Origin: Kaistia algarum
GTDB lineage: Bacteria; Pseudomonadota; Alphaproteobacteria; Rhizobiales; Kaistiaceae
Assembly (NCBI RefSeq): GCF_026343945.1
Contig: NZ_JAPKNJ010000001.1
Coordinates: forward strand, 186,001-250,000
Length of the DNA: 64,000 nt
Reading direction: 5' to 3'
In this document: positions 53,131-64,000 of the stretch, piece after piece
How the letters are laid out: each line of letters begins with the position of its first letter
Position numbering within the stretch: position 1 is the first letter of the stretch
Notes under the pieces: generated by a model
Databases searched by the model: none
What the model was told of the DNA's origin: nothing
What the model saw: only the letters and a program-made list of their open reading frames with translations
Translations under genes and position numbers: made by a program

Positions 53131-53475
53131 TTAGACGGGGCTCCAGCCACCGCTCTTCAACACCAGCAATTGATCCGCATTGCGATCGAAGGCGAGCCAG
53201 CCGGTCGCCGGCACCGCAAACCACCATGCCCCGTCGGCATAGACGGCGAGATTGCCGCCCTGCCCGGACCATGCGCCCGTCGGCGTCGTGCCGAGGAGGT
53301 AGCGATCGCCTTCCGCCGGCGAGCCGGGCGGTGCGGTCGCGCCGCTCGCCTCGACCGCGAGCTGGACGATGCCGTCAAGGCGTTTCAGCGCCTCGTTATG
53401 GGTGACATGCTTCTGCGCCTGGGCCGCCGCGATATAGGGCAGCTTCAGCGAAGACGTCTCAAGCGGATCAGCCAT
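53131..53475 (-). CDS. DUF2793 tail-associated protein of the GTA
   Basis: This 114-residue protein matches the DUF2793 pattern. It has an N-terminal PYIAAAQAQKHVTHNEALKRLD helix, then a beta-rich domain with GDRYLLGTTPTGAWSG and WWFAVPATGW. DUF2793 domains are common at the distal tail of alphaproteobacterial phages and GTAs, where they may mediate surface binding. It overlaps the 3' end of the large host-specificity gene by 8 nt and so is translationally coupled. Confidence 0.88.
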   Translation of the reverse strand: MADPLETSSLKLPYIAAAQAQKHVTHNEALKRLDGIVQLAVEASGATAPPGSPAEGDRYLLGTTPTGAWSGQGGNLAVYADGAWWFAVPATGWLAFDRNADQLLVLKSGGWSPV

Positions 53476-56400
53476 CGATCAGGATCTCCGTGGAAAGGCC
53501 AGCGCCGCGTGTCGCGCTCAACTGCGCGACGCGGACGGTGAAGGGTGCCGAGGGGGTGGAAAGCACGGCGGCCAGCGCCGTGGCGGTCAGCGTCAGCGAT
53601 GGCGCGGCACTGGTCAGGCTGGCGCGAAGCGTCGTTGCCTCCAGCAGCTCGACCCGGTAGGCCTCGGTCGCCTCGCCGAGCGGCACCTCGACCTGGTCCC
53701 AGCCATCGCCGCCGATCCGGGTCTGGCGGATCCAGCGCAGAGCGACATCGCCGGACGAATCTCTCGCCCCCTGAAGATGAACGGGCGCGAGGCAGCGCAG
53801 CGCTATTCCCGCCACAGAGAAGCCGCGCTCCGCGAACTTGTCCGGGTCATAGGCGAGGCTGAGCGGGCCGGCGCGGAGCGAGCGGACGAGGCCGATCTCG
53901 GTGCTGTCCAGTTCGAGCCGAGGGGTCGCGCCATCGAGCCGGACGAAACGCGCTCCGGCCGCGTGGCCCACGTCGGCGAGATCGCTCGTGCCGCCCTGGC
54001 CGCGCAGCAATCCCGACAGACGCCAGAGATTGGCGCCGACCAGCTCGGCGTTACGATACTGGATAACCTCGAAACCCGAAGCTTCGGTGCCGATCGCCGC
54101 GAGATTGCCGCCATTCAGCACGGCTTCGTCCGGCAGCGCGGCGAGCGAGCCGGCGCGAAGCCGCACCTCGATCTCCGTCGCTTCGTCGAAGCGCGCGATC
54201 GGCCCCGGTGGGATCGCGGCGGCGATCGTGCCGAGCGTGGCGCGTTGCGCGACCGACTGGCGAAGCGCATAGCCGGCATCGGCCGAGCCGACCGAAATGC
54301 CGAACGGGCCGTTCCACGGGTCGGCGAAGAGCGCGATCCGCGCGGCGGCGCCGGTTGCATCCGCATCCTCGGATGGCAGATCGAGGATGACGACGTCCGG
54401 TGGTCCCGGATCGCCGGTCCAGCCCGGCAGCGTCGCCGTCGCGTCGGCAAGTGGCGTCGAGGCCGTTGGCGGGGCGATCGACGATCCTTCGACGCGCCGC
54501 GCCAGCCCGTCCTCGATGCGGGTAACCCGGAAGACGACGCTCTCGCCGTTCCGCTCCAGCCTCAGCACATCGGCCGGCTCGATATCCAGCCGACGGGGAT
54601 CGAGAGCCAGCGACACCGTCTCGCGCCCCTCCCAGAGATCCTGCAACCGGTCATCGGCGAGCGCCGTGGCGACGCCGTCATCCATGACGATGGAAGTGGA
54701 CGAAGACGCCTGGCGCCGGCTTGCCGTCTCCAGCCGCCGCGAGGCAACGGTGCGTGAGCGATAATCGTTGAGCGGATCGATGAAGCCCAGGCCGAACTCG
54801 GCCGGCAGCTCGGTCTCCTGCGCGCGGCGGAGGCTGACCAGCGGCGTCCCCTCCCCCTCGGCCAGCGTGCTTTCGGAAATCGCCAGCTTCGGCAGGCTGG
54901 AGCGCACGAAGCGGATGACATCGGCCGATTCGGCGGCGGTAAAGCCGAGCGCCTCGGCGAGCGGCTGGAGCGCCTGCCGCGCCGAACCGACGCTGCCAAT
55001 GACATAGCCGTCGACCATGCCGGCGAGATCGCCGATCTCATAGTCGGCAAAGCCGTAGTCCTTAAGGATGCGCTCGACGAGGCGGATTGCCGGCAGCGTG
55101 CCAAGCCGGCCGTTCAGCCAGTGGCCCGTCTGCCAGTTGCCGCCGTCCGACCAGACATCAGTGCGAAACGGAAAGGCCGGATAGGGTCGCGCATCCCAGG
55201 ACCAGACATAGGTGCGGCCGATATCGACCATCCGCCCGCCATAGACGGCGGAAACCGGATTGGAGGCCGCCGAGAACGCTGGCGAGGCGGGATCCCAATA
55301 GGATAGCAGTGCCGACAGCGCCCGCTCCTGCATCAGCGCATCGCGCGAGCCATTAGAAAAATGCGGCAGGCGCGCACCGCCGACTTTCGGATCGGGGAAG
55401 ACGTTGGGTTCGTTGGCGCCTTTGTCGATCGCCGGGCAGCCGATCTCCGTGAACCAGATCGGCTTGCCCTCCGGCACCCAGGATGTCGGGCTCGCCTGCT
55501 CGACATAGCCGACGCGGTCATAGTGCGGCTGGCTCCACCAGGACTTCAGATCCTTATAGCGATAGACCCAGGGCTTGCCATAGCCGCCATCGGTGATCGG
55601 CGAGCGGATCTGCGCGGCGCGATCGGCGTCCGAGCCATAGTACCAGTCGAAGCCCTCGCCGCCGGCGATGTTGGAGCGCAGATAGGCGATATCGCGGCCG
55701 CTATCGGCGATGGCCGCATCCAGATGATCGGCGCCGTCGCGCCAATCGGAGAGCGGAACATAGGAGTCGACGCCGACCGCATCGATGGCGCTGTCGCTCC
55801 AGAGCGGATCGAGATGGAAGAAGGCATCGCCGGACCCATCGCCCGGCTGGTGGCCGAAATATTCGCTCCAGTCGGCGGCATAGGTGATCTTACATCCGGT
55901 CCCGAGGATGGCGCGGACATCGGCGGCGAGCGTCTTCAAGGCGGCGACGAAGGGGTAGGCGTTGCCGGCGGAGCGGAGCGTCGTCAGCCCGCGCAGTTCC
56001 GAGCCGATGATGAAGGCATCGACGCCGCCGGCAATCACGCAAAGCCAGGCCGAATGCAGCACCATGCGCCGGTAGGACCATTCGGCCGGGCCGGAATAGA
56101 CGACGCTGACGCCGGACATGGCGAAATCCGTCCGCGCCGCCGTACCCATGAACGCGGCGATCTCGGCCTCCACGGCAGTCGTCTTGTCGGGCGAACCGCT
56201 CATCCCCGGCGCCCAGGACGACGTGATGCGGCCGCGCCAGGGATAGGCCGGCTGCGTGCCCCAGCCATAGGGATCGGTGAGGGCATTGCCGGCCGGCACA
56301 TCCATCATCAGGAATGGGTAATAGGTGACGGCGAGGCCCCGAAGCTTCAGATCGACGATGGCGCGCAGCACGCTGGCATCGGACGGCGTGCCGCCATAAG

Positions 56401-57343
56401 CGGGCCGGCCACCAATCTGGCTGACGAGCCCGGCGCTGGCCCGATTCAGCCCCGAGACGCTCCATTCGGTCGGGCTTGTCGCGGTTCCATAGGCTTCGAC
56501 GCGCGGCGTCACCGTGCAATGATCGGCGCGCAGATCGCTGCCGAACCAGCTCACGGCGAGCGCAGCACGATCGAGGTTCGGGCAGAGCGACTGAAGCTCG
56601 TCGAGCGAGGCCTGCCAATCGGTCAACGAGCCGTCGATGTGGCGATTGATCGTCTCGCGGCTGCCGATTTCGCCGTCGCGATAGACCGGGTTCGGGTCAT
56701 AGGCGAATTCGGAAGCGGCCGGGATGATCACCACCGAGCGGATCTCGTCCTCCAGCCCGCCTGCGGGGCGGAAGACTTCGAAGGCGAGCTGCGGCAGGCG
56801 GTTGCCATAATCGGTGATCGGTAGCCGCTCGAACACGACCACGGCCGTGCCGCGATAGGCCGGCGTGCCGGCCGTTCCCTGCTTGGCGACGATCAGGCTG
56901 TCGGTGCCCTGGCTCTCACCGCCGATATGGACGCGGTGATAGATCGTCGAGAGATCGATCTCGTCGCCATCGGCCCAGCAGCGGCCGATGCGGGCGATCG
57001 GTCCCTCGCAAAGGCCGATCGCGAAATTGGCATAGTAGGAATAGTTGATGACGGAGGCGCCGCCCTTGCCGCCCTCCTCGCTCTTCACCTCCTCGAAGCG
57101 CGTCGCCCAGATCACCTGGCCCGAGAGCCGCGCCTTGCCATAGACGCGCGGGATCGCCGCGCCCTCCTCCGAACGCTGGACGTTCAGATCCGAAAGCCGA
57201 GCGCCCTCGACCGTCGAGCCGAACAGATATTGATCGACCGCATAGCCGGCGAGCGCACCGGCGGCCGCACCAATCGTCGCGCCGAGCGGGCCCAGGACGC
57301 CACCAAGCGCCGCGCCCGCCACCTGAAGAACCAGCGTCGCCAT
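53468..57343 (-). CDS. GTA host-specificity / tail fibre megatron protein
   Basis: This 1,291-residue protein is the RcGTA gp15-type product, which forms the central tail-tip megatron. The N-terminal hydrophobic Gly/Ala-rich segment (GAALGGVLGPLGATIGAAAG), a GTA TIM-barrel-like domain (about 430-740, for example DAVGVDSYVPLSDWRD and WFTEIGCPAIDKGAN) and a phage-tail domain (about 800-960) are visible. The ATG at 57343 overlaps the NlpC/P60 stop by one base. The length is close to the family norm (about 1,300). It probably contacts the recipient envelope and guides DNA release. Confidence 0.95.
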   Translation of the reverse strand: MATLVLQVAGAALGGVLGPLGATIGAAAGALAGYAVDQYLFGSTVEGARLSDLNVQRSEEGAAIPRVYGKARLSGQVIWATRFEEVKSEEGGKGGASVINYSYYANFAIGLCEGPIARIGRCWADGDEIDLSTIYHRVHIGGESQGTDSLIVAKQGTAGTPAYRGTAVVVFERLPITDYGNRLPQLAFEVFRPAGGLEDEIRSVVIIPAASEFAYDPNPVYRDGEIGSRETINRHIDGSLTDWQASLDELQSLCPNLDRAALAVSWFGSDLRADHCTVTPRVEAYGTATSPTEWSVSGLNRASAGLVSQIGGRPAYGGTPSDASVLRAIVDLKLRGLAVTYYPFLMMDVPAGNALTDPYGWGTQPAYPWRGRITSSWAPGMSGSPDKTTAVEAEIAAFMGTAARTDFAMSGVSVVYSGPAEWSYRRMVLHSAWLCVIAGGVDAFIIGSELRGLTTLRSAGNAYPFVAALKTLAADVRAILGTGCKITYAADWSEYFGHQPGDGSGDAFFHLDPLWSDSAIDAVGVDSYVPLSDWRDGADHLDAAIADSGRDIAYLRSNIAGGEGFDWYYGSDADRAAQIRSPITDGGYGKPWVYRYKDLKSWWSQPHYDRVGYVEQASPTSWVPEGKPIWFTEIGCPAIDKGANEPNVFPDPKVGGARLPHFSNGSRDALMQERALSALLSYWDPASPAFSAASNPVSAVYGGRMVDIGRTYVWSWDARPYPAFPFRTDVWSDGGNWQTGHWLNGRLGTLPAIRLVERILKDYGFADYEIGDLAGMVDGYVIGSVGSARQALQPLAEALGFTAAESADVIRFVRSSLPKLAISESTLAEGEGTPLVSLRRAQETELPAEFGLGFIDPLNDYRSRTVASRRLETASRRQASSSTSIVMDDGVATALADDRLQDLWEGRETVSLALDPRRLDIEPADVLRLERNGESVVFRVTRIEDGLARRVEGSSIAPPTASTPLADATATLPGWTGDPGPPDVVILDLPSEDADATGAAARIALFADPWNGPFGISVGSADAGYALRQSVAQRATLGTIAAAIPPGPIARFDEATEIEVRLRAGSLAALPDEAVLNGGNLAAIGTEASGFEVIQYRNAELVGANLWRLSGLLRGQGGTSDLADVGHAAGARFVRLDGATPRLELDSTEIGLVRSLRAGPLSLAYDPDKFAERGFSVAGIALRCLAPVHLQGARDSSGDVALRWIRQTRIGGDGWDQVEVPLGEATEAYRVELLEATTLRASLTSAAPSLTLTATALAAVLSTPSAPFTVRVAQLSATRGAGLSTEILIDG

Positions 57344-57777
57344 CAGATCACTCCGGGAAAAGCAAAGGCGAAGGCGACACGGCGGCGCCACCAGGGCACT
57401 AAATCGGCCGGCGCGACGGCGGCGCCGTCATGGGCGTGGATGAAGCGATCGGGCGCGATCAGGATGCCGGCATGCTTGGCCGGCAGGCCGGGACGCCAGC
57501 GAAACAGCAAGACGTCGCCGGTTTGCGCCTCGGCCGGGTCCACAGGCGTCAGATGGCGGCCGGCCGCCTCGGCCAAGGTCTCGCGGCCCTGCGCCTCGGC
57601 CCAATCCGCCGTATAGCGCGGCGGCGCCTCCGGTTCCTCGCCATAAAGCTCGCGCCAGACGCCACGCACGAGGCCAAGGCAATCGCAGCCGACGCCCTTC
57701 AGCGAGGCCTGATGGCGGTACGGCGTGCCGAGCCACGACAGTGCGGCGACGGCGATGGCGTCGCGGGAGATGGGCAT
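57343..57777 (-). CDS. GTA NlpC/P60 peptidase
   Basis: This 144-residue NlpC/P60 cell-wall peptidase (RcGTA gp14-like) has catalytic Cys33 in GCDCLGLVRGVWREL and His102 in PAKHAGILI, with a third polar residue (His114 region) downstream. It starts at the ATG at 57777 (MPISRDAIAVAA), which gives the family N-terminus. The family is thought to open recipient peptidoglycan during DNA entry. A 339-bp gap to the DUF2163 gene holds two palindromic elements and no gene. Confidence 0.93.
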   Translation of the reverse strand: MPISRDAIAVAALSWLGTPYRHQASLKGVGCDCLGLVRGVWRELYGEEPEAPPRYTADWAEAQGRETLAEAAGRHLTPVDPAEAQTGDVLLFRWRPGLPAKHAGILIAPDRFIHAHDGAAVAPADLVPWWRRRVAFAFAFPGVI

Positions 57778-57975: not shown

Positions 57976-58100
57976 GTCCCCTCTCCCGCGAAGCGGGGGA
58001 GGGCTAGGGAGGGGGTCCATCCGAGAGGTCGCTTGGCTCGCCAGTGGTTCCAGCGGCCCGCCGACCCCCACCCTGGCCCTCCCCGCGAGGGGGAGGGAAA
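57976..58100. repeat. Palindromic intergenic element (copy 3)
   Basis: Arms at about 57976-58019 (CCCCTCTCCCGCGAAGCGGG and a GGGCTAGGGAGGGGGTCC continuation) and 58063-58100 are inverted relative to each other. It uses the GAGGGxTxGGGAGGGGGTC variant arm, as in the 59691, 60515 and 63408 copies. Confidence 0.85.
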
Positions 58101-58116
58101 AGAGAAGAAAGGCACG

Positions 58117-59007
58117 TCACATCACGATCGCGCCGCCATCGTTCTGGCTGCCGCTCCTCGCATAGCCCAGGCTGAAATCATTGCCCGGCATGTGCGGAAA
58201 GCCGCGGAAGTTCAGCGTGTTGGCGAATTTGGCGCGGCAGGTCGAAAAGCGCTTGTCGCAGCCGGCCGTGACGGTCAGCGTGTCGCCCGCCGCGACCAGC
58301 CCGCTCATCGCTGTCCAGAGTTCAACCCGCAGCGCGCTATCGACGATCCGGTGCGAGCGCACGACACCGGCGCGGCCAGTATTGGCGCCGGAGGTGAACA
58401 TCGCCCGGCCGCGTTCGAACCAGCCGACCGCGAAGGCATCGAGGCCGGAGAGCGTCAGATATTTGCCGTCCTCGCTCGCGACCACCGTCGCAAAGCCGCG
58501 CAAGGCGCCCGCCGTGAGATCGACCTTGCAGCGCACATCGCCGAGCTCGGCGTCGCAGGCGGCGCGGAACGATCGCCCTTGCGGCTGGTCGAGCGCGGCA
58601 GCGAGGCCGCGGATCTCGACGCGAAAGGCGCCGTCCTCTCGCAGCACCTCGCCGACATGGCCGGTCCGCAGCAGCAGCCGTTCGGCTGGCGCCTGCCAAT
58701 TGACGGCGAAAGTCTCGATCCTCGCATGGTCATAGAGCCCGGCGGCGAGATCGGCCTCGGCAATGCGATCCGACGAGAGCGCGCCGGCGACCTCCATGCC
58801 GCCCGTCGAAAAGCCGGTCCCGGCATTGGCCTCGCTGGCGGAAAGCCCGCTCGCCGCCTCGAAGGTGACGCCGTCAAAGGCGAGGTCGCGGTCATGGTCG
58901 GTGAAACCGAGCACCGCGCCGTCCTTGCGCGTCAGCTTCCAGCAGCGGCACATGGTTGTGGCTTCGCCGGTCAGATGCGCCGCGAGATCGGTCGGCAGCG
59001 TCCTCAT
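58117..59007 (-). CDS. GTA DUF2163 tail hub protein
   Basis: This 296-residue protein of the DUF2163 / phage BR0599 family is RcGTA gp13-like. Four cysteines, Cys151 and Cys160 (RAACDAELGDVRCKVDL) and Cys250 and Cys257 (GCDKRFSTCRAKF), are in the positions thought to hold an iron-sulfur cluster in the RcGTA hub. The conserved end NFRGFPHMPGND is present. It overlaps the DUF2460 gene by 4 nt. It forms part of the baseplate hub that connects tail tube and megatron. Confidence 0.93.
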   Translation of the reverse strand: MRTLPTDLAAHLTGEATTMCRCWKLTRKDGAVLGFTDHDRDLAFDGVTFEAASGLSASEANAGTGFSTGGMEVAGALSSDRIAEADLAAGLYDHARIETFAVNWQAPAERLLLRTGHVGEVLREDGAFRVEIRGLAAALDQPQGRSFRAACDAELGDVRCKVDLTAGALRGFATVVASEDGKYLTLSGLDAFAVGWFERGRAMFTSGANTGRAGVVRSHRIVDSALRVELWTAMSGLVAAGDTLTVTAGCDKRFSTCRAKFANTLNFRGFPHMPGNDFSLGYARSGSQNDGGAIVM

Positions 59008-59654
59008 GGCAGGATCTCCACCAGCGGGATCGACGGGATCGCACCGGCCTCGAAGGCGGAAAGATCGATCGCGAGCTGGTCGAGATCGAAGCGCACCGGC
59101 ACGTCGAAGCGGAAGCCGGCCGTGATCGCTGCGCCGTCAGGAGGAATATGTCCGGGCAGAAAGGTGACGAGGCCGCTCGCCGGGTCGACGGCGACGGCGA
59201 TGCCCTCCGCCATTTCCGTGCCGGCGACGGCGACGCGCACGCTGCCCTCCACGGGCTTGGCGATCTGCCGGACATAGGGCGCATGGACTGAACCATAGGT
59301 TTTGGCGAGCTGGAACACGGTCTTGACCCCGTCGCCCGTGCCGATCGCCTGGTCGAGCGGACCCGGCTCGCTGCCGGGCGGCACGGAGCCGTCGTCGGTG
59401 CGGTCGCGCCAGCGGAAGCCGAACAGCTTGCCGCGCCGCTCCTCGAAGAACTCGATGACCGCATTCATGTCGACCAGCGAGCGCACGCCATAGCCGGCAT
59501 CATAGCGCCGTCGCGAATCCGCCCAGCGCTGGTTGCGCGTCTCGCGCCCCGAGCCGAGCGTCACCACCTCGGTCTTGCGCTCCGGCCCGCCCGAGGAGCG
59601 AAAGGCGATGCCGGTCGGAAAGCGGATTTCGTGGAAGGATGGGATCAGGGGCAT
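59004..59654 (-). CDS. GTA DUF2460 distal tail protein
   Basis: This 216-residue DUF2460 (TIGR02217) protein is RcGTA gp12-like, the distal-tail or baseplate adaptor. Conserved marks include FHEIRFPTGIAFRSSGGPE, NQRWADSRRRYDAGYGVRS and FFEERRGKLFGFRWRDR. Length and motifs are complete. It follows the tape-measure gene after a 197-bp spacer filled by a palindromic element, unlike the overlapping junction with DUF2163. Confidence 0.94.
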   Translation of the reverse strand: MPLIPSFHEIRFPTGIAFRSSGGPERKTEVVTLGSGRETRNQRWADSRRRYDAGYGVRSLVDMNAVIEFFEERRGKLFGFRWRDRTDDGSVPPGSEPGPLDQAIGTGDGVKTVFQLAKTYGSVHAPYVRQIAKPVEGSVRVAVAGTEMAEGIAVAVDPASGLVTFLPGHIPPDGAAITAGFRFDVPVRFDLDQLAIDLSAFEAGAIPSIPLVEILP

Positions 59655-59690
59655 GGGGGTTCTCCTCGCCGATGATGCGACGCTCTTTCT

Positions 59691-59814
59691 TCTCCTCCCC
59701 CCTTGTGGGGGAGGCCGGGAGGGGGGTCTCTATCCACGAGTCGGGTCGTCGAAGACAGAGATCGACGCCCAACGAAGCCCCCCTCTCCAGCTCTCCCCCA
59801 CAAGGGGGGAGAGG
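59691..59814. repeat. Palindromic intergenic element (copy 4)
   Basis: Arms at about 59691-59730 and 59776-59814 are inverted repeats (CTCCTCCCCCCTTGTGGGGG... and its complement) with a TTGTG/CACAA-type loop in place of CTTCG. It occupies the spacer between the tape-measure and DUF2460 genes. Confidence 0.85.
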
Positions 59815-59851
59815 GCCGGCCGTCGCGCTTCATCGGCAGCAGAGTCCGCGC

Positions 59852-60418
59852 TCACAGCCCCCGCCGGCCCCGGCCGACCGCGCGGGCGAGCGTCGCCGCG
59901 ACCTGGGCCTCGGATTTCCTGAAGCTCGCCGCGTCCTGGGTCTGGATCGCGACATTGACCGTGACGCCGGCCTGCCCGCCACCAGCGACGCCGAGGCGGC
60001 CGTCCGGCCCGCGTGACAGCGGCATCACGGCTTCGGCACCGGCCTCGCCCATCAGGCCGAGACCTCGCCCCAGCGGAAAATAGGTCGGGCTCGCCACGAC
60101 GCCGCCGGAGGCGAACGGCACGATTCCACCCTTGGCAAAGCCGCTGACGCCGAAGGACGAAAGCACGCTCGACAGCACGCCGCCGATCCCGCTCTCGAGC
60201 GGCTTCAGCGCCGCGTTGAGCGCGATCGTCGAAAACCGCAGCGCCAGGTTCTTCAAGACGTCGTCGAGATCCTTGCCGCCGATGACGGCGCTCGAAAAGG
60301 CACTGGTGATCGCGAAAGAGAAGGAATTGGCGCGCTTGGACAGATCATCCAGCGAAGCGCGGAAGGCGGTGGTGTCGGCTGAAATGGTGACCGAGAGTTC
60401 GTCGACGACGGTGGGCAT
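59852..60418 (-). CDS. GTA tail tape-measure protein
   Basis: This 188-residue protein is much shorter than phage tape measures (600 or more) but close to RcGTA gp11. The helical N-terminus (DELSVTISADTTAFRASLDDLS) leads to the conserved core FAKGGIVPFASGGVVASPTYF and GLMGEAGAEAVMPLSR, a tape-measure hallmark. The C-terminus is Gly/Arg-rich. The short length fits the short tail of GTA particles. It is flanked on both sides by palindromic elements. Confidence 0.9.
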   Translation of the reverse strand: MPTVVDELSVTISADTTAFRASLDDLSKRANSFSFAITSAFSSAVIGGKDLDDVLKNLALRFSTIALNAALKPLESGIGGVLSSVLSSFGVSGFAKGGIVPFASGGVVASPTYFPLGRGLGLMGEAGAEAVMPLSRGPDGRLGVAGGGQAGVTVNVAIQTQDAASFRKSEAQVAATLARAVGRGRRGL

Positions 60419-60514
60419 GGAGAGCCTTTCTCGAAGCCTCCCGTTGCGGGAGGCTCAAAACCGCGCGAGCGGTACTGGGGAGTGGTGCGCGAATCGTCGG
60501 ACGCCGAGACGCTG

Positions 60515-60643
60515 AGCCCTCTCCCGCTTGCGGGGGAGGGTTGGGAGGGGGCGAACCGCCGAGGCGCGGATCGCTTGCGATGGCGTTGCCAGTCGATCGA
60601 AGGACCCCCTCCCCGGCCCTCCCCCGCTTCGCGGGAGAGGGGG
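60515..60643. repeat. Palindromic intergenic element (copy 5)
   Basis: Arms at about 60515-60551 and 60603-60643 are inverted repeats (CCCTCTCCCGCTTGCGGGGG with GAGGGTTGGGAGGGGGC and the complement). It lies in the 314-bp gap between the tape-measure start and the divergent DUF2059 gene. Confidence 0.87.
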
Positions 60644-60732
60644 AAGGAAGGCACGCCGTTTCGTCAGGATCGTGTCTTCACATCGACACGTCTTTGCTGC
60701 TACCGATAGCGCCTGCTCTATCGGAGGTAGCA

Positions 60733-61224
60733 ATGAAGCTCGTCAGACTGGCCGTTGTTCTGTTCTTCACGGCGAGCGCGCTGCCGGCCGCTCATGCAGT
60801 CGAGCCGACGATCGACGAGAAGGTGGAATATCTCTTGAAGGGTTGCGCGACGACCGACAGTGAAGCCCTCTTTGCCGCGATGGCTCCAAGTCTCAAAAGA
60901 GATCTAAGCGGGCAACCGCCAGAAGCTGCGGCTCGGATGCTTGAAATTGCAAAGGGCCTGGTCGCCCTCGACTTTCCTGACTTCCGATCCAAATATCTGA
61001 CGTTCTATCGCGCGACGTTCAGCGATGCCGAGATTTCGGCCATGTACGAGTTCTACACGTCACCGATTGGCCGCCAGATCGTTGACAAGAACAAGCGAGT
61101 GACGGCCTTCGAGAGTCAGGCAATAGCGGATCACTTCAAAGGCTTTTCGGGCAAGATGTGGTCAGCCTGGGCAAAGGACGCGGAACTTCAGGCCATCTTG
61201 AGGAAGCCGAAGAACAAATCATAG
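60733..61224 (+). CDS. DUF2059-like secreted protein, inserted in the GTA tail operon
   Basis: This 163-residue protein on the opposite strand to the GTA genes has an ATG at 60733 with a perfect GGAGGT site and a 22-residue signal peptide ending AHAVE. The DUF2059-type helical domain contains LTFYRATFSDAEISAMYEFY followed by TSPIGRQIVDKNK. It is tail-to-tail with the tail-chaperone gene (4 bp). DUF2059 proteins are common periplasmic proteins of unknown role. Nothing links it to particle assembly; it looks like a passenger gene. Confidence 0.85.
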   Translation: MKLVRLAVVLFFTASALPAAHAVEPTIDEKVEYLLKGCATTDSEALFAAMAPSLKRDLSGQPPEAAARMLEIAKGLVALDFPDFRSKYLTFYRATFSDAEISAMYEFYTSPIGRQIVDKNKRVTAFESQAIADHFKGFSGKMWSAWAKDAELQAILRKPKNKS

Positions 61225-61228
61225 CCCC

Positions 61229-61420
61229 TCAATCCGGAAACCGTCTCGCCAATTCCTCCAGCCGTTCCCGGTCCATCGGCGCGCTCGTCCTTCCCGTCAG
61301 CCCTTCGATCGCGCTGGCGAGTTCCCTTGGCGTCAAGGCCCAAAATTCGCGACTGGACAGGCGCAGGACGCCGAAGCCGATCGCCATGGCCTCGCGCCAG
61401 GGAAAAGGCTCGGCGCTCAC
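61229..61420 (-). CDS. GTA tail assembly chaperone-like protein (small)
   Basis: This gene encodes 63 residues. The segment PFPWREAMAIGFGVLRLSSREFWALTPRELASAI is characteristic of the small phage tail-assembly-chaperone family found before the tape measure in RcGTA-type clusters. It overlaps the upstream 104-residue gene by 4 nt. As in tail chaperone pairs such as lambda G/GT, it probably helps polymerise the tail tube around the tape measure. Confidence 0.88.
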   Translation of the reverse strand: MSAEPFPWREAMAIGFGVLRLSSREFWALTPRELASAIEGLTGRTSAPMDRERLEELARRFPD

Positions 61421-61731
61421 GGTTCGCCGCCGAAGGTGACGGCCAGCAGTTCGGCGACGATAGAAGCGAAGCCGGCGGCGCCGCCTTCAGCCCGCATCGC
61501 GGCAACCTCGTCGTCGGAAATATCCGCGCCGGCACCGCGCAGGCCCGCACCGATAATCCGCGCCGCGTCGCGGGCCGAGAGGCGGCCTTGCGAAAAGCGT
61601 GTGGCCAGCGCCGAGAGATCCTCGGCGCCGAAGGCGGCCTCCAGTTCGGCCAGCGCGCCCAGCGTCAGGACGAGTACGCGGGCCTCGCCGTCGAGGACCG
61701 CCTCGATCTCGCCTCGCCTGCGGTTGGCCAT
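61417..61731 (-). CDS. GTA family protein (gp10-type tail chaperone)
   Basis: This 104-residue acidic-basic mixed protein is of the gene-transfer-agent gp10 family. It has MANRRRGEIEAVLDGEARVL, LTLGALAELEAAFG and ARDAARIIGAGLRGAG. It overlaps the major tail gene by one base and the small chaperone gene by 4 nt. Its position between major tail and tape measure matches tail chaperone genes in siphophages. Confidence 0.9.
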   Translation of the reverse strand: MANRRRGEIEAVLDGEARVLVLTLGALAELEAAFGAEDLSALATRFSQGRLSARDAARIIGAGLRGAGADISDDEVAAMRAEGGAAGFASIVAELLAVTFGGEP

Positions 61732-62144
61732 CAGGCGGCCGTGAAGCTGATGGGGCCGGCGGATTCGAGCGCGATCTCATAGGTGATCGCGCCGTCATGC
61801 TCGCCGGCATAATCGAGCGCCGTGATCTGGAACGCCCCCTGCAGCGTGCCGAAATCCGGCACGACGAGCTGGTAGTCGCGGATCAAACCGTCGAAGAAAA
61901 CGGTGCGCATGGCGGCGTCGCTCGCCTGGTCGCGGAAGATGCCGGCGCCGGAGATCGAGGCGCGGCGCACGCCCGCGCCGGCCAGAAGCTCGCGCCAGCG
62001 GCCGGCGGAATCGGTGTCGGTGATATCCACCGTCTCGGCATTGAAGGCGATACGGCGGGTGCGGAGCCCGGCGACGGTGGCGAATGAGCCGGCGCCGCTG
62101 GTGTCGATCTTCAGAAGAGGGTCCTTGCCCTTCTGTGCGGTCAT
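61731..62144 (-). CDS. GTA major tail protein
   Basis: This 137-residue protein of the TP901-1/TIGR02126 major tail family is RcGTA gp9-like. It has AQKGKDPLLKIDTSG, FNAETVDITDTDSAGRWREL, GAGIFRDQASD and ITALDYAGEHDGAITYEIAL. The ATG at 62144 follows a GAGGAGACA site. It forms the tail tube. Its start faces the divergent GNAT gene at 62194, so the 49 bp between them would have to contain any separate promoters. Confidence 0.94.
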   Translation of the reverse strand: MTAQKGKDPLLKIDTSGAGSFATVAGLRTRRIAFNAETVDITDTDSAGRWRELLAGAGVRRASISGAGIFRDQASDAAMRTVFFDGLIRDYQLVVPDFGTLQGAFQITALDYAGEHDGAITYEIALESAGPISFTAA

Positions 62145-62193
62145 GATGTCTCCTCGCTCGAAAGGGCGCGGGGCGCCGTGAGGGTTTGAAAGC

Positions 62194-62691
62194 GTGTCCG
62201 GTTCGGAATTTCTGGTGCGGCCCGCTGAGGCGGCCGATCTGCATTTCGTCATCGCGACCGAGCGATTGCCCGGCTATGAGCACCTCGTCGGCCGCTCGAC
62301 GCCGGCGCAGCACGAGGCGTACCTGGCCGATGACCGCCACGCCTATTTCATCGCCGAGGCGGCGGGCTCCCCCGCCGGTTTCGTCATCGTGCGCGACTGG
62401 AATTCATGGGACGGCGTCAGCCTGATGAAGCGGGTAGCGGTGGCCGAGCCCGGTCGCGGCATCGGCCGTGCCATGCTCTCGGCCGTCGTCGATCGGGTCT
62501 TTCTCCAGACCGAAGCCTGGCGCCTGGAGATCGGCCTGTTTCCGGCCAACGAGCGCGCCCGCCGCTGTTATGAAGCGTCCGGCTTCGTTCCCGAGGGCAT
62601 TGCGCGCGGCCGCGTGTTCTTCGAGGGCGAGCATCGCGACGAGATGGTGATGGCGATGCTACGGCCGGAATGGGAGGCGCGGCGGGGATAG
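62194..62691 (+). CDS. GNAT-family N-acetyltransferase, inserted in the GTA cluster
   Basis: This 165-residue GNAT enzyme has the acetyl-CoA motif A (VAEPGRGIGRAMLSAVVDRV, about 86-105) with RGIGRA as the Q/RxxGxG/A signature. The C-terminal NERARRCYEASGFVPEG gives motif B. The acceptor substrate is unknown. It is on the opposite strand from the tail genes, between major tail and DUF3168, and the downstream side is bordered by a palindromic element. It is not a usual GTA component and looks like an acquired passenger gene. Confidence 0.92.
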   Translation: MSGSEFLVRPAEAADLHFVIATERLPGYEHLVGRSTPAQHEAYLADDRHAYFIAEAAGSPAGFVIVRDWNSWDGVSLMKRVAVAEPGRGIGRAMLSAVVDRVFLQTEAWRLEIGLFPANERARRCYEASGFVPEGIARGRVFFEGEHRDEMVMAMLRPEWEARRG

Positions 62692-62707
62692 ACAAGCAGG
62701 CAAGGAA

Positions 62708-62831
62708 GGCCCTCACCCCCGCCCTCTCCCGCAAGCGGGCGAGGGGGCCGACACTGCCCTTCATAAGGCGAGCGCCCGGTCGTTGGCGCCCCCTCTCCCG
62801 CCTAGCGGGAGAGGGCCGGGGTGAGGGTCTT
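62708..62831. repeat. Palindromic intergenic element (copy 6)
   Basis: Arms at about 62708-62749 and 62786-62831 are inverted repeats of the 18993-type sequence (GGCCCTCACCCCCGCCCTCT and the complement ending AGGGTCTT). It lies between the convergent 3' ends of the GNAT and DUF3168 genes, where the hairpin may act as a transcription barrier. Confidence 0.9.
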
Positions 62832-62836
62832 GCTTC

Positions 62837-63241
62837 CTACCCCTCGACCAGTGCCCCGAGCCGCAACACGCCGTGCTCCGTCAGCCCGTCCGGGTCCGTC
62901 CGGACTTCGGCGAATTCGGCACGCAGTAGCACCAGCGCATGATCGGCCAGCGTCAGTTCGGCCTCGTGCAGCAGGCTCATCAGCCGTCCGAGGATCGTCC
63001 AGGCCTCGCGTTTGCCCGCCGCGCGCGACCAGACATGCAGCGTGACGCGCACCTGCCCGCCCGGCGTATCGCCATCCGACCAGTCGCTCTGCGCCCCATC
63101 GCCGATGGTCAGGAACGGAAATTCCGTTCCACGCGGCGCGCCGTCATGAATCCGCGGCCCGCCCAGCAGCGCGACGAGATCGGCATCGACGAGAAGAGCG
63201 GCGGCGATGGCGGCTTGCAGGTCGAGGGCGGCGGGATTCAT
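62837..63241 (-). CDS. GTA DUF3168 tail terminator-like protein
   Basis: This 134-residue DUF3168 protein (RcGTA gp8-type, tail terminator/completion) has LQAAIAAALLVDADLVALLG, FPFLTIGDGAQSDWSD, VTLHVWSRAAGKREAW and the C-terminal GVLRLGALVEG. It overlaps the HK97-gp10-like gene by 4 nt. Length and motifs are normal. Confidence 0.93.
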   Translation of the reverse strand: MNPAALDLQAAIAAALLVDADLVALLGGPRIHDGAPRGTEFPFLTIGDGAQSDWSDGDTPGGQVRVTLHVWSRAAGKREAWTILGRLMSLLHEAELTLADHALVLLRAEFAEVRTDPDGLTEHGVLRLGALVEG

Positions 63242-63678
63242 GCGGGCCTCCGTCGGATGGCGTCGATCGCGGGGGCGAGGACAGGATCGGCGGGCGTGTT
63301 CAGCGCACCGTATTCGCGGGCGAAGAGGTTCGGGGCGGAGAGGGTCAGGGTGGCGGAACGCCTGCCCGAGTGGGCGCGACCCGTGATCGCGAGCCGAGGC
63401 GTCGCCGCCCCCCTCTCCCCGAAGGGGGGAGGGTAAGGGAGGGGGCCAGTCGGCACGTCCAGCATCGGTCCGGGAACAGAAAGACCGACGCCCTTGGCGA
63501 CGGCCCCCTCTCCAACTCTCCCCCCTTCGGGGAGAGAGGGCTCGCTGCGGCCTGCATCGACATCCTCCAAAGCCTGTTGGAATTGAACAGCCTTGTTCTG
63601 CACCGCCCCCGCAATCGCCACCTCCGCCGCCTTGCCCAAAACCTCGGCCAGAGCGGCGCCCGTCAGCTTGCGGCTCAT
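63238..63678 (-). CDS. GTA HK97-gp10-like protein with an in-frame palindromic insertion
   Basis: This 146-residue protein of the HK97 gp10 / TIGR01725 family links head and tail. The N-terminal part (1-44, MSRKLTGAALAEVLGKAAEV) and C-terminal part (about 92-146) look like the family. The middle (about 46-91) is translated from the palindromic element at 63408-63541 and is Pro/Gly-rich with no family match. The insertion is in frame and leaves both overlapping gene junctions intact. The protein may still fold, with the insert as a surface loop, or the GTA may be impaired. Confidence 0.8.
   Translation of the reverse strand: MSRKLTGAALAEVLGKAAEVAIAGAVQNKAVQFQQALEDVDAGRSEPSLPEGGRVGEGAVAKGVGLSVPGPMLDVPTGPLPYPPPFGERGAATPRLAITGRAHSGRRSATLTLSAPNLFAREYGALNTPADPVLAPAIDAIRRRPA
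63408..63541. repeat. Palindromic element inside a coding region (copy 7)
   Basis: Arms at about 63408-63447 (CTCTCCCCGAAGGGGGGAGG and its GGTAAGGGAGGGGGCC continuation) and 63502-63541 are inverted repeats of the variant family seen at 57976, 59691 and 60515. All other copies are intergenic. This one contributes about 45 codons to the HK97-gp10-like gene without a stop. Confidence 0.85.
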
Positions 63679-64000
63679 ATCCGTTCCTCCTCGGCCTCGA
63701 TGACGAGGAAGCGCCGGCTCTCGTCGGCGTCGCGCAGGCTCGCGATCCGGAGAATCCGGCCGCGATGGCGAAGGCGCATGGCGCCGGTCAAATCGGCGCG
63801 CCAGCGGATCGTCACGCGGTGAGTGACGCGCGTGGCGAGGCGGCCGGATGCGCCGTCCTCGTTGGCGGAAAGCGGCTCGATCGCCGCCCAGACCGTGGCA
63901 AACGGCTCGAAGGCGATCGACGCGCCGCCGGCCCCGTCCTCCGTGCGCACCGGGCGCTCGATGGCGACGCGGTGCGTCAGACCGCCGGGGTCGAAATCCA
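63675..64000 (-). CDS. GTA head-tail adaptor protein, partial
   Basis: The reading frame runs off the right window edge; at least 108 residues are visible. FDPGGLTHRVAIERPVRTEDGAGG followed by WAAIEPLSA and RHRGRILRIASLRDADESRRFLVIEAEE is the standard head-tail joining (SPP1 gp16-like) family of GTAs and HK97-type phages. It overlaps the HK97-gp10-like gene by 4 nt. The capsid, protease, portal and terminase genes would be expected immediately to the right of the window. Confidence 0.9.
   Translation of the reverse strand, partial: DFDPGGLTHRVAIERPVRTEDGAGGASIAFEPFATVWAAIEPLSANEDGASGRLATRVTHRVTIRWRADLTGAMRLRHRGRILRIASLRDADESRRFLVIEAEEERI

Follow-up and report, generated by a model that had tools for sequence, protein, structure and literature searches.

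A small neck or tail gene of the gene transfer agent (GTA) cluster in the window (the whole stretch of 64,000 nucleotides that was analysed) contains a palindromic repeat that is kept in frame. Palindromes resembling the Rickettsia palindromic elements (RPEs) have very probably been captured repeatedly at permissive coding sites of Kaistia genomes and filtered for reading frame, and the copy in the GTA gene, which belongs to a type designated A, would be one that is tolerated in a protein loop. The element is RPE-like in that it is a repeated palindrome of ~100-150 bp, lies in frame in a gene that has repeat-free homologues, and has counterparts in unrelated genes. The initial annotation had suggested that an in-frame palindrome of this kind is tolerated in a GTA gene outside the order of Rickettsia, and the comparison across the genus supports this suggestion.

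One type A copy would have entered the gene for a small protein resembling neck or tail completion proteins, at the loop that joins its N-terminal helix to its β-hairpin. With the frame kept and the sense reading free of stops, the protein would be ~45 residues longer, would possess a disordered loop rich in Pro, Gly, and Glu, and would still work in a GTA that has retained its function. The same loop would have been struck, replaced, or built up several times within the genus by different palindrome types, presumably because it is structurally permissive and because new elements preferentially insert within or next to existing ones, and selection would clear arrivals that break the frame or bear stops. 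The mobile elements would arrive by means of an enzyme acting in trans, and the disorder of the loop would be the reason for tolerance. A point against this explanation is that the hairpin (-110 kcal/mol), through which translation would have to proceed, could hinder it.

The best-known in-frame palindromes are those of Rickettsia, which is obligate intracellular, so that weak selection is a ready excuse there. In the part of the source that was available, RPEs are described as ~150-bp palindromes of several families that lie in frame in unrelated genes and are read as extra peptide (PMC10969869). The Kaistia elements share with them the palindrome size, the existence of several families, and in-frame insertion in unrelated genes, a likeness of description; they differ in that they occur outside Rickettsiales, are GC-rich, reside in a GTA neck/tail gene, and vary in family from species to species at a single site. 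Enterobacterial RU elements, which are small mobile palindromic or MITE-like elements, reportedly also occur inside genes, in frame. Coxiella QMITEs, elements of the same general kind, are able to lengthen ORFs or insert into them in frame, according to the accessible portion of the source (PMC5896051). Compared with these systems, the Kaistia case adds tandem in-frame growth and, for a GTA gene outside Rickettsiales, the replacement of one element family by another at a single coding position within a genus. A search of the literature, mainly open-access, found nothing on Kaistia together with gene transfer agents and no title on palindromic repeats of Kaistia. The genus has cultured type strains and offers ten inserted and four uninserted natural alleles of one small gene, with three element types. 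As gene transfer provides a functional read-out, this allelic series makes both the neutrality of the loop and selection on GTAs directly testable, and the same genomes allow an analogous test on an enzyme, the cobaltochelatase CobN (see below).

The palindrome and its reading frame

The type A element occupies positions 63408..63541 of the window on the minus strand and corresponds to codons ~46-91 of a 146-aa protein. An inverted-repeat search delimited two arms of 39 nt that are 87% complementary; the arm nearer the gene start (63502..63540) encodes PSLPEGGRVGEGA and the arm nearer the gene end (63409..63447) encodes GPLPYPPPFGERG. The sense strand folds with -110.3 kcal/mol, compared with a mean of -74.2 (sd 4.49) for 200 shuffled sequences, none of which folds as well (z = -8.04); the RNA fold z-score thus rules out a chance palindrome. 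A DNA search of the genome of the window with the element returned 13 matches, including two that are the element itself on each strand, and the type A elements of this genome and of genome G002 are 79% identical over 150 columns (BLAST). The repeat of ~134 bp described in the initial annotation is borne out by these arms, by the fold (z = -8.0), and by the further genomic copies.

The ORF (63238-63678, minus strand, 146 aa) is open across the whole palindrome, as had been claimed for the ~45 codons added in frame and without a stop. By itself, however, the open frame of this insert is weak evidence, because five of its six readings are stop-free. Of the type B elements described below, 78 copies from four genomes, each of at least 115 nt and mostly but not all intergenic, have on average only 0.82-1.14 open readings out of six, in contrast to the copies of the GTA gene that bear a type B element, all six of which are open. 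It had also been stated that the family is otherwise seen only between genes. This is correct for the other palindromes within positions 58000-64000 of the window, but not genome-wide, where elements are found in genes for an ABC-transporter ATPase and for CobN. Another intergenic palindrome of the genome, found by the inverted-repeat search, lies just downstream of the GTA gene (62702..62835).

The GTA cluster and the identity of the gene

The host of the cluster is a Kaistia-related genome (Hyphomicrobiales). The cluster is an RcGTA-type GTA, as RcGTA-specific tail genes are co-located with head genes and open frames with family matches include those for terminase, portal, protease, capsid, connector, head completion, tail tube (61731..62141, minus strand), hub, distal tail protein, and megatron (53468..57391, minus strand; NF048004, 1693 bits); the last is of RcGTA type and marks the cluster as RcGTA-like. 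In particular, it shares with RcGTA the megatron, the hub, a distal tail protein of the Rcc01695 family, GTA-gp10, the tail tube, and an HK97-type capsid, but differs in possessing the palindrome-bearing gene between the head completion and terminator genes. In the part of PMC11661146 that was available, the table lists no such tail completion protein for RcGTA.

The insert-bearing gene (63238..63678, minus strand) was assigned to an HK97-gp10 or tail-completion-like protein from its ORF, orthologues, synteny, and predicted fold. Its upstream neighbour encodes a head completion protein (63675..63950, minus strand; Phage_HCP, gp16_SPP1 head closure) and overlaps its start by 4 nt, and its downstream neighbour (62837..63241, minus strand; PF11367, 111.9 bits) encodes a protein of the tail completion gp17 family in the tail terminator position. 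The gene is thus located between head closure and tail terminator, and the order of gp6-like connector, head closure, insert-bearing gene, terminator position, and tail tube is the same as in HK97. Two opposite-strand ORFs are also present within the cluster: one at 62194-62691 (plus strand), presumably acetyltransferase-like, with similar ORFs near the same place at three other loci (L011, L013, and L014), and one at 60541-61224 (plus strand) that encodes a small protein with a signal-like start.

The HK97-gp10-like label is partly supported: gene order and predicted fold favour it, but Pfam gives no match. PF04883 was not matched by any of the seven copies of the GTA protein scanned, and a profile comparison aligned just 20 columns, limited to the C-terminal motif. 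Pfam, PHROGs, and NCBIfam gave no name for the gene, apart from a weak match of one of the seven copies to the PHROG 'tail completion or Neck1' (E 0.069). No match was found when the PDB was searched by sequence or when phages were searched by tblastn with the uninserted protein, and a Foldseek comparison of the model of the uninserted homologue with the PDB returned nothing at E <= 0.001. With its uninserted length of only 88-93 aa, the lack of PF04883, and the 20-column match, the protein differs from HK97 gp10, SPP1 gp16.1, and 80alpha gp51. The fold order of 80alpha gp51 is given as helix, hairpin, short helix, helix in the accessible text (PMC11661146), and the secondary-structure order predicted for the Kaistia protein (long N-terminal helix, hairpin, short helix, C-terminal helix) would agree with it, a likeness of predicted order that the Foldseek comparison did not bear out.

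AlphaFold models suggest where the insert is accommodated. The uninserted homologue (mean pLDDT 75.7, pTM 0.50) is predicted to consist of a helix (3-36), two strands (41-47 and 50-56), and two further helices (62-70 and 77-87). The model of the inserted protein is of low confidence (mean pLDDT 58.0, pTM 0.25); it has a helix at residues 7-44, residues 52-93 that are all below pLDDT 50, strands at 95-103 and 106-114, and then helices. The insert would therefore form a low-confidence loop between the N-terminal helix and the β-hairpin, with the hairpin and helices predicted as in the uninserted homologue. On the DNA, the N-terminal part (residues 1-45) corresponds to 63544..63678 and the C-terminal part, with the predicted hairpin, the LFARE(F/Y)GALD motif, and the C-terminal helices, to 63241..63402 (both minus strand), as delimited by homologue comparison and the model. 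In the portion of the source available, one copy of the 80alpha tail completion protein is described as lying inside the neck lumen, with the DNA end on one side and the tape measure on the other (PMC11661146). If the 146-aa protein were the same as the 80alpha protein, the added loop would lie in a crowded place, which would be surprising.

Alleles and element types across the genus and at other sites

The neighbouring gp17 gene, used as bait, was found in all 14 genomes of the genus, and the gene upstream of it was read in each. An in-frame palindrome is present in the same loop of the orthologous gene in ten of the 14 (nine complete copies and the contig-broken copy of G002). In the other four (G005, G009, G011, and G012), the gene is uninserted and encodes a protein of 88-93 aa. 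Insertions in ten separate genomes rule out an assembly artefact, although the G002 copy is cut by contig ends. Outside the genus, the bait matched three of 14 genomes of the family (G017, G025, and G027); in G017, G025, and one further MAG, the gene is uninserted and encodes ~91-92 aa, while G027 gave no reading with the motif. A search with the uninserted protein found six proteins, all of 88 or 93 aa. As these matches and the relatives outside the genus are all short, the short form is most simply taken as ancestral. The search with the inserted protein, which uses words from the insert too and may favour inserted forms, found seven homologues besides the query, all with inserts.

Alignment of the homologues confirmed the insertion. 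The length gap to the uninserted homologues is 53-58 aa compared with ~45 in the palindrome and includes a diverged linker, since there is no exact empty site among the copies. The middle sequence was looked for in the repeat-free homologues and is absent from them. The protein is unlikely to start downstream of the insert, because the part upstream of it is kept in both inserted and uninserted homologues and is predicted to form one long helix in both.

When the gene copies were compared by BLAST with reference elements of types A, B, and C, the inserts at this one site proved to be of different types. Type A is present in the genome of the window and in G002, type B in G003, G004, G008, G010, and G013, and type C in G001 and G006; the insert of G007 is a composite of a half-C followed by B, and the four uninserted copies match none of the three. 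Types A and C have similar ends. The type B inserts vary in length, yet every copy is in frame. In the homologue P0008, the insert is also composite, with a C-like left half followed by a repeat of another type. Moreover, the G002 gene contains a tandem type A array of 3.2 units (three full copies and one half copy) with a period of 189 nt, i.e., 63 codons. This array (L016:1-610; end of L132) is cut by a contig end, and the G002 N-terminal part, which lies with a 79-nt element piece at the end of another contig, may belong to the same copy. In a tree of the g6, head completion, and gp17 proteins, insert types do not follow clades: the genome of the window (A) groups with G007 (C+B) and G006 (C) with G010 (B; support 94), and G002 (A) is placed elsewhere.

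The elements constitute several families of short (~120-150 bp), high-copy palindromes in Kaistia genomes. In the counts given here, palindromes count on both strands and up to 40 candidates per genome were scored. Type B has at least 73-87 matches in each of seven genomes, at least 54 in G006, 36 in G011, 21 in the genome of the window, and 8 in G005, and none among the matches listed in G002, G009, and G012. Type A has at least 99 matches in G002, at least 10 in the genome of the window, and at least 2-9 in four others, and none among the matches listed in eight. Type C is matched in 13 of the 14 genomes, with at least 22 matches in the genome of the window, 31 in G011, and 1 in G009, and none listed in G012. 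The uninserted genomes G009 and G012 have almost no elements among the matches listed, but G011 is element-rich and its gene is nevertheless uninserted; the presence of elements is therefore not sufficient for insertion.

The GTA insert is one case of a genus-wide habit, as is evident from CobN and the ABC-transporter ATPase. The cobN loci (L236-L258; G000:C2:412077-415550 in the genome of the window) carry in-frame elements at one or two places, with A, B, or C matches in ten of the 14 genomes; these are the same ten that have an insert in the GTA gene, and the same four have none (the 1228-aa CobN ORF of G005, for example, has no element match). At the first place (~nt 1335-1640 of the ORF), seven genomes have B, the genome of the window and G007 have A/C-type halves, and the insert of G002 has no match among the three types. 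At the second (~nt 2480-2815), C halves are found in the genome of the window, G001, G006, and G010, A in G002, and B in G007. The contig piece of G008 begins inside the gene, so that its coordinates differ, and the series of types is not as clear-cut as in the GTA gene. In the ABC-transporter ATPase of the genome of the window, a type-C-like element lies in frame between two ABC domains (L130, G000:C1:1669953-1670138).

In-gene elements were also sought more broadly. A crude codon-position screen of 46 loci (L070-L115, four skipped) scored three of 42 as gene-like, which is a lower bound, as the screen misses the GTA gene. A survey of 20 regions, chosen mostly for long open frames, led to 19 being screened and nine ORFs being scanned, of which CobN (four) and the ABC ATPase are convincing; PBP1C (two), an Fe-ADH, and a sugar-binding protein are doubtful because the element may precede the true start. 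A REP/RAYT system is not indicated as the source: none of the 14 genus genomes matches the Y1 (REP-associated, RAYT-type) transposase PF01797, compared with five of 14 control genomes, E. coli included.

At some orthologous element sites elsewhere, the copies of sister species differ. Among 11 sites of G003 and G004, five are clean pairs, three have different type B copies, and three are partial or one-sided; among seven sites of G001 and G006 (plus one spurious partial match), five are clean and two have different copies or types: at one, B adjoins a residual half of C, and at the other the B copies are not the same. Site-level turnover, i.e., different palindrome copies or types at orthologous sites, was seen at L137/L159, L146/L157, L147/L178, L197/L221, and L206/L223.

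It could be argued that a single old insertion occurred at the root of the inserted group and that gene conversion with copies elsewhere in the genome afterwards exchanged its sequence, in place of repeated arrivals. All inserts lie at one place in the ten genomes that have one, A and C have similar ends, and many B copies are 84-93% identical to the G004 copy, a similarity sufficient for conversion among elements of one type. Between types, however, the complete elements diverge too strongly for simple conversion. In G007 and P0008, a left C-like half has remained adjacent to a different element, and at L197/L221 the right half of C is preserved beside a B, which is the pattern expected if later elements arrive within or adjacent to an earlier one; a single insertion followed by conversion thus seems rather unlikely.

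Repeated capture of RPE-like elements may have a further consequence, which is put forward as a possible extension, somewhat less likely than not: a tolerated palindrome could serve as an in-gene landing pad that attracts other families, so that the loop, in CobN as well, would be rebuilt repeatedly with selection checking the frame alone. If so, unrelated selfish elements would supply a phage-like particle with new disordered loops throughout the genus, and a retained insert might then come under constraint at the nucleotide level.

Selection on the gene and its insert

The gene flanks have dN/dS values of 0.21-0.46 (12 non-independent pairs), which indicates that they are under purifying selection. 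The values for the insert, 0.38-1.33 where defined (eight of ten pairs), are uninformative, because three of the ten pairs compare different element types. At the nucleotide level, the insert differs at 1/129 positions between G003 and G004 compared with 36/300 in the flanks (p = 2e-5), and at 4/123 between G001 and G006 compared with 65/300 (p = 4e-7).

These differences raise the alternative that the insert is kept for a nucleic-acid role, either as an mRNA hairpin setting the level of the protein or of downstream tail genes or as a DNA palindrome serving as a binding site. In both genome pairs, no other part of the gene is as well conserved as the insert, whichever codon position is considered, and the insert also differs less than orthologous elements elsewhere (clean pairs; 30/628 for G003/G004 and 47/539 for G001/G006; p = 0.047 and 0.039), although these p values are soft, as the control pairs were picked by eye after the alignments had been seen (5/11 and 5/7 sites kept). 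Single control elements come close to the conservation of the insert (3/126 and 3/123), but most others do not. Moreover, the protein of the window and P0002 show no excess conservation, with 33/45 identical residues in the insert and 35/47 and 38/54 in the flanks. Four of the 14 genomes do without the insert, and sister genomes differ in its type. Part of the conservation would reflect the fast evolution of the gene around the insert and part would be common to other elements, and the remainder is suggestive only. The case for strong constraint is weakened by the control elements and by the comparison with P0002; it is kept just as a rival, and an improbable one, to the tolerated insertion of RPE-like elements.

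That the gene is decaying and the insert persists simply because it lies in a pseudogene or a silent GTA is very unlikely: Pfam does not match the protein, which also evolves faster than the region around it, and the tape measure protein scores below the cut-off of the RcGTA model (157.8 vs 220), but the reading frame is intact in all 13 complete gene copies examined, the flanks have the low dN/dS values given above, and the terminase, portal, protease, capsid, connector, head completion, tail, and megatron genes are all open with family matches.
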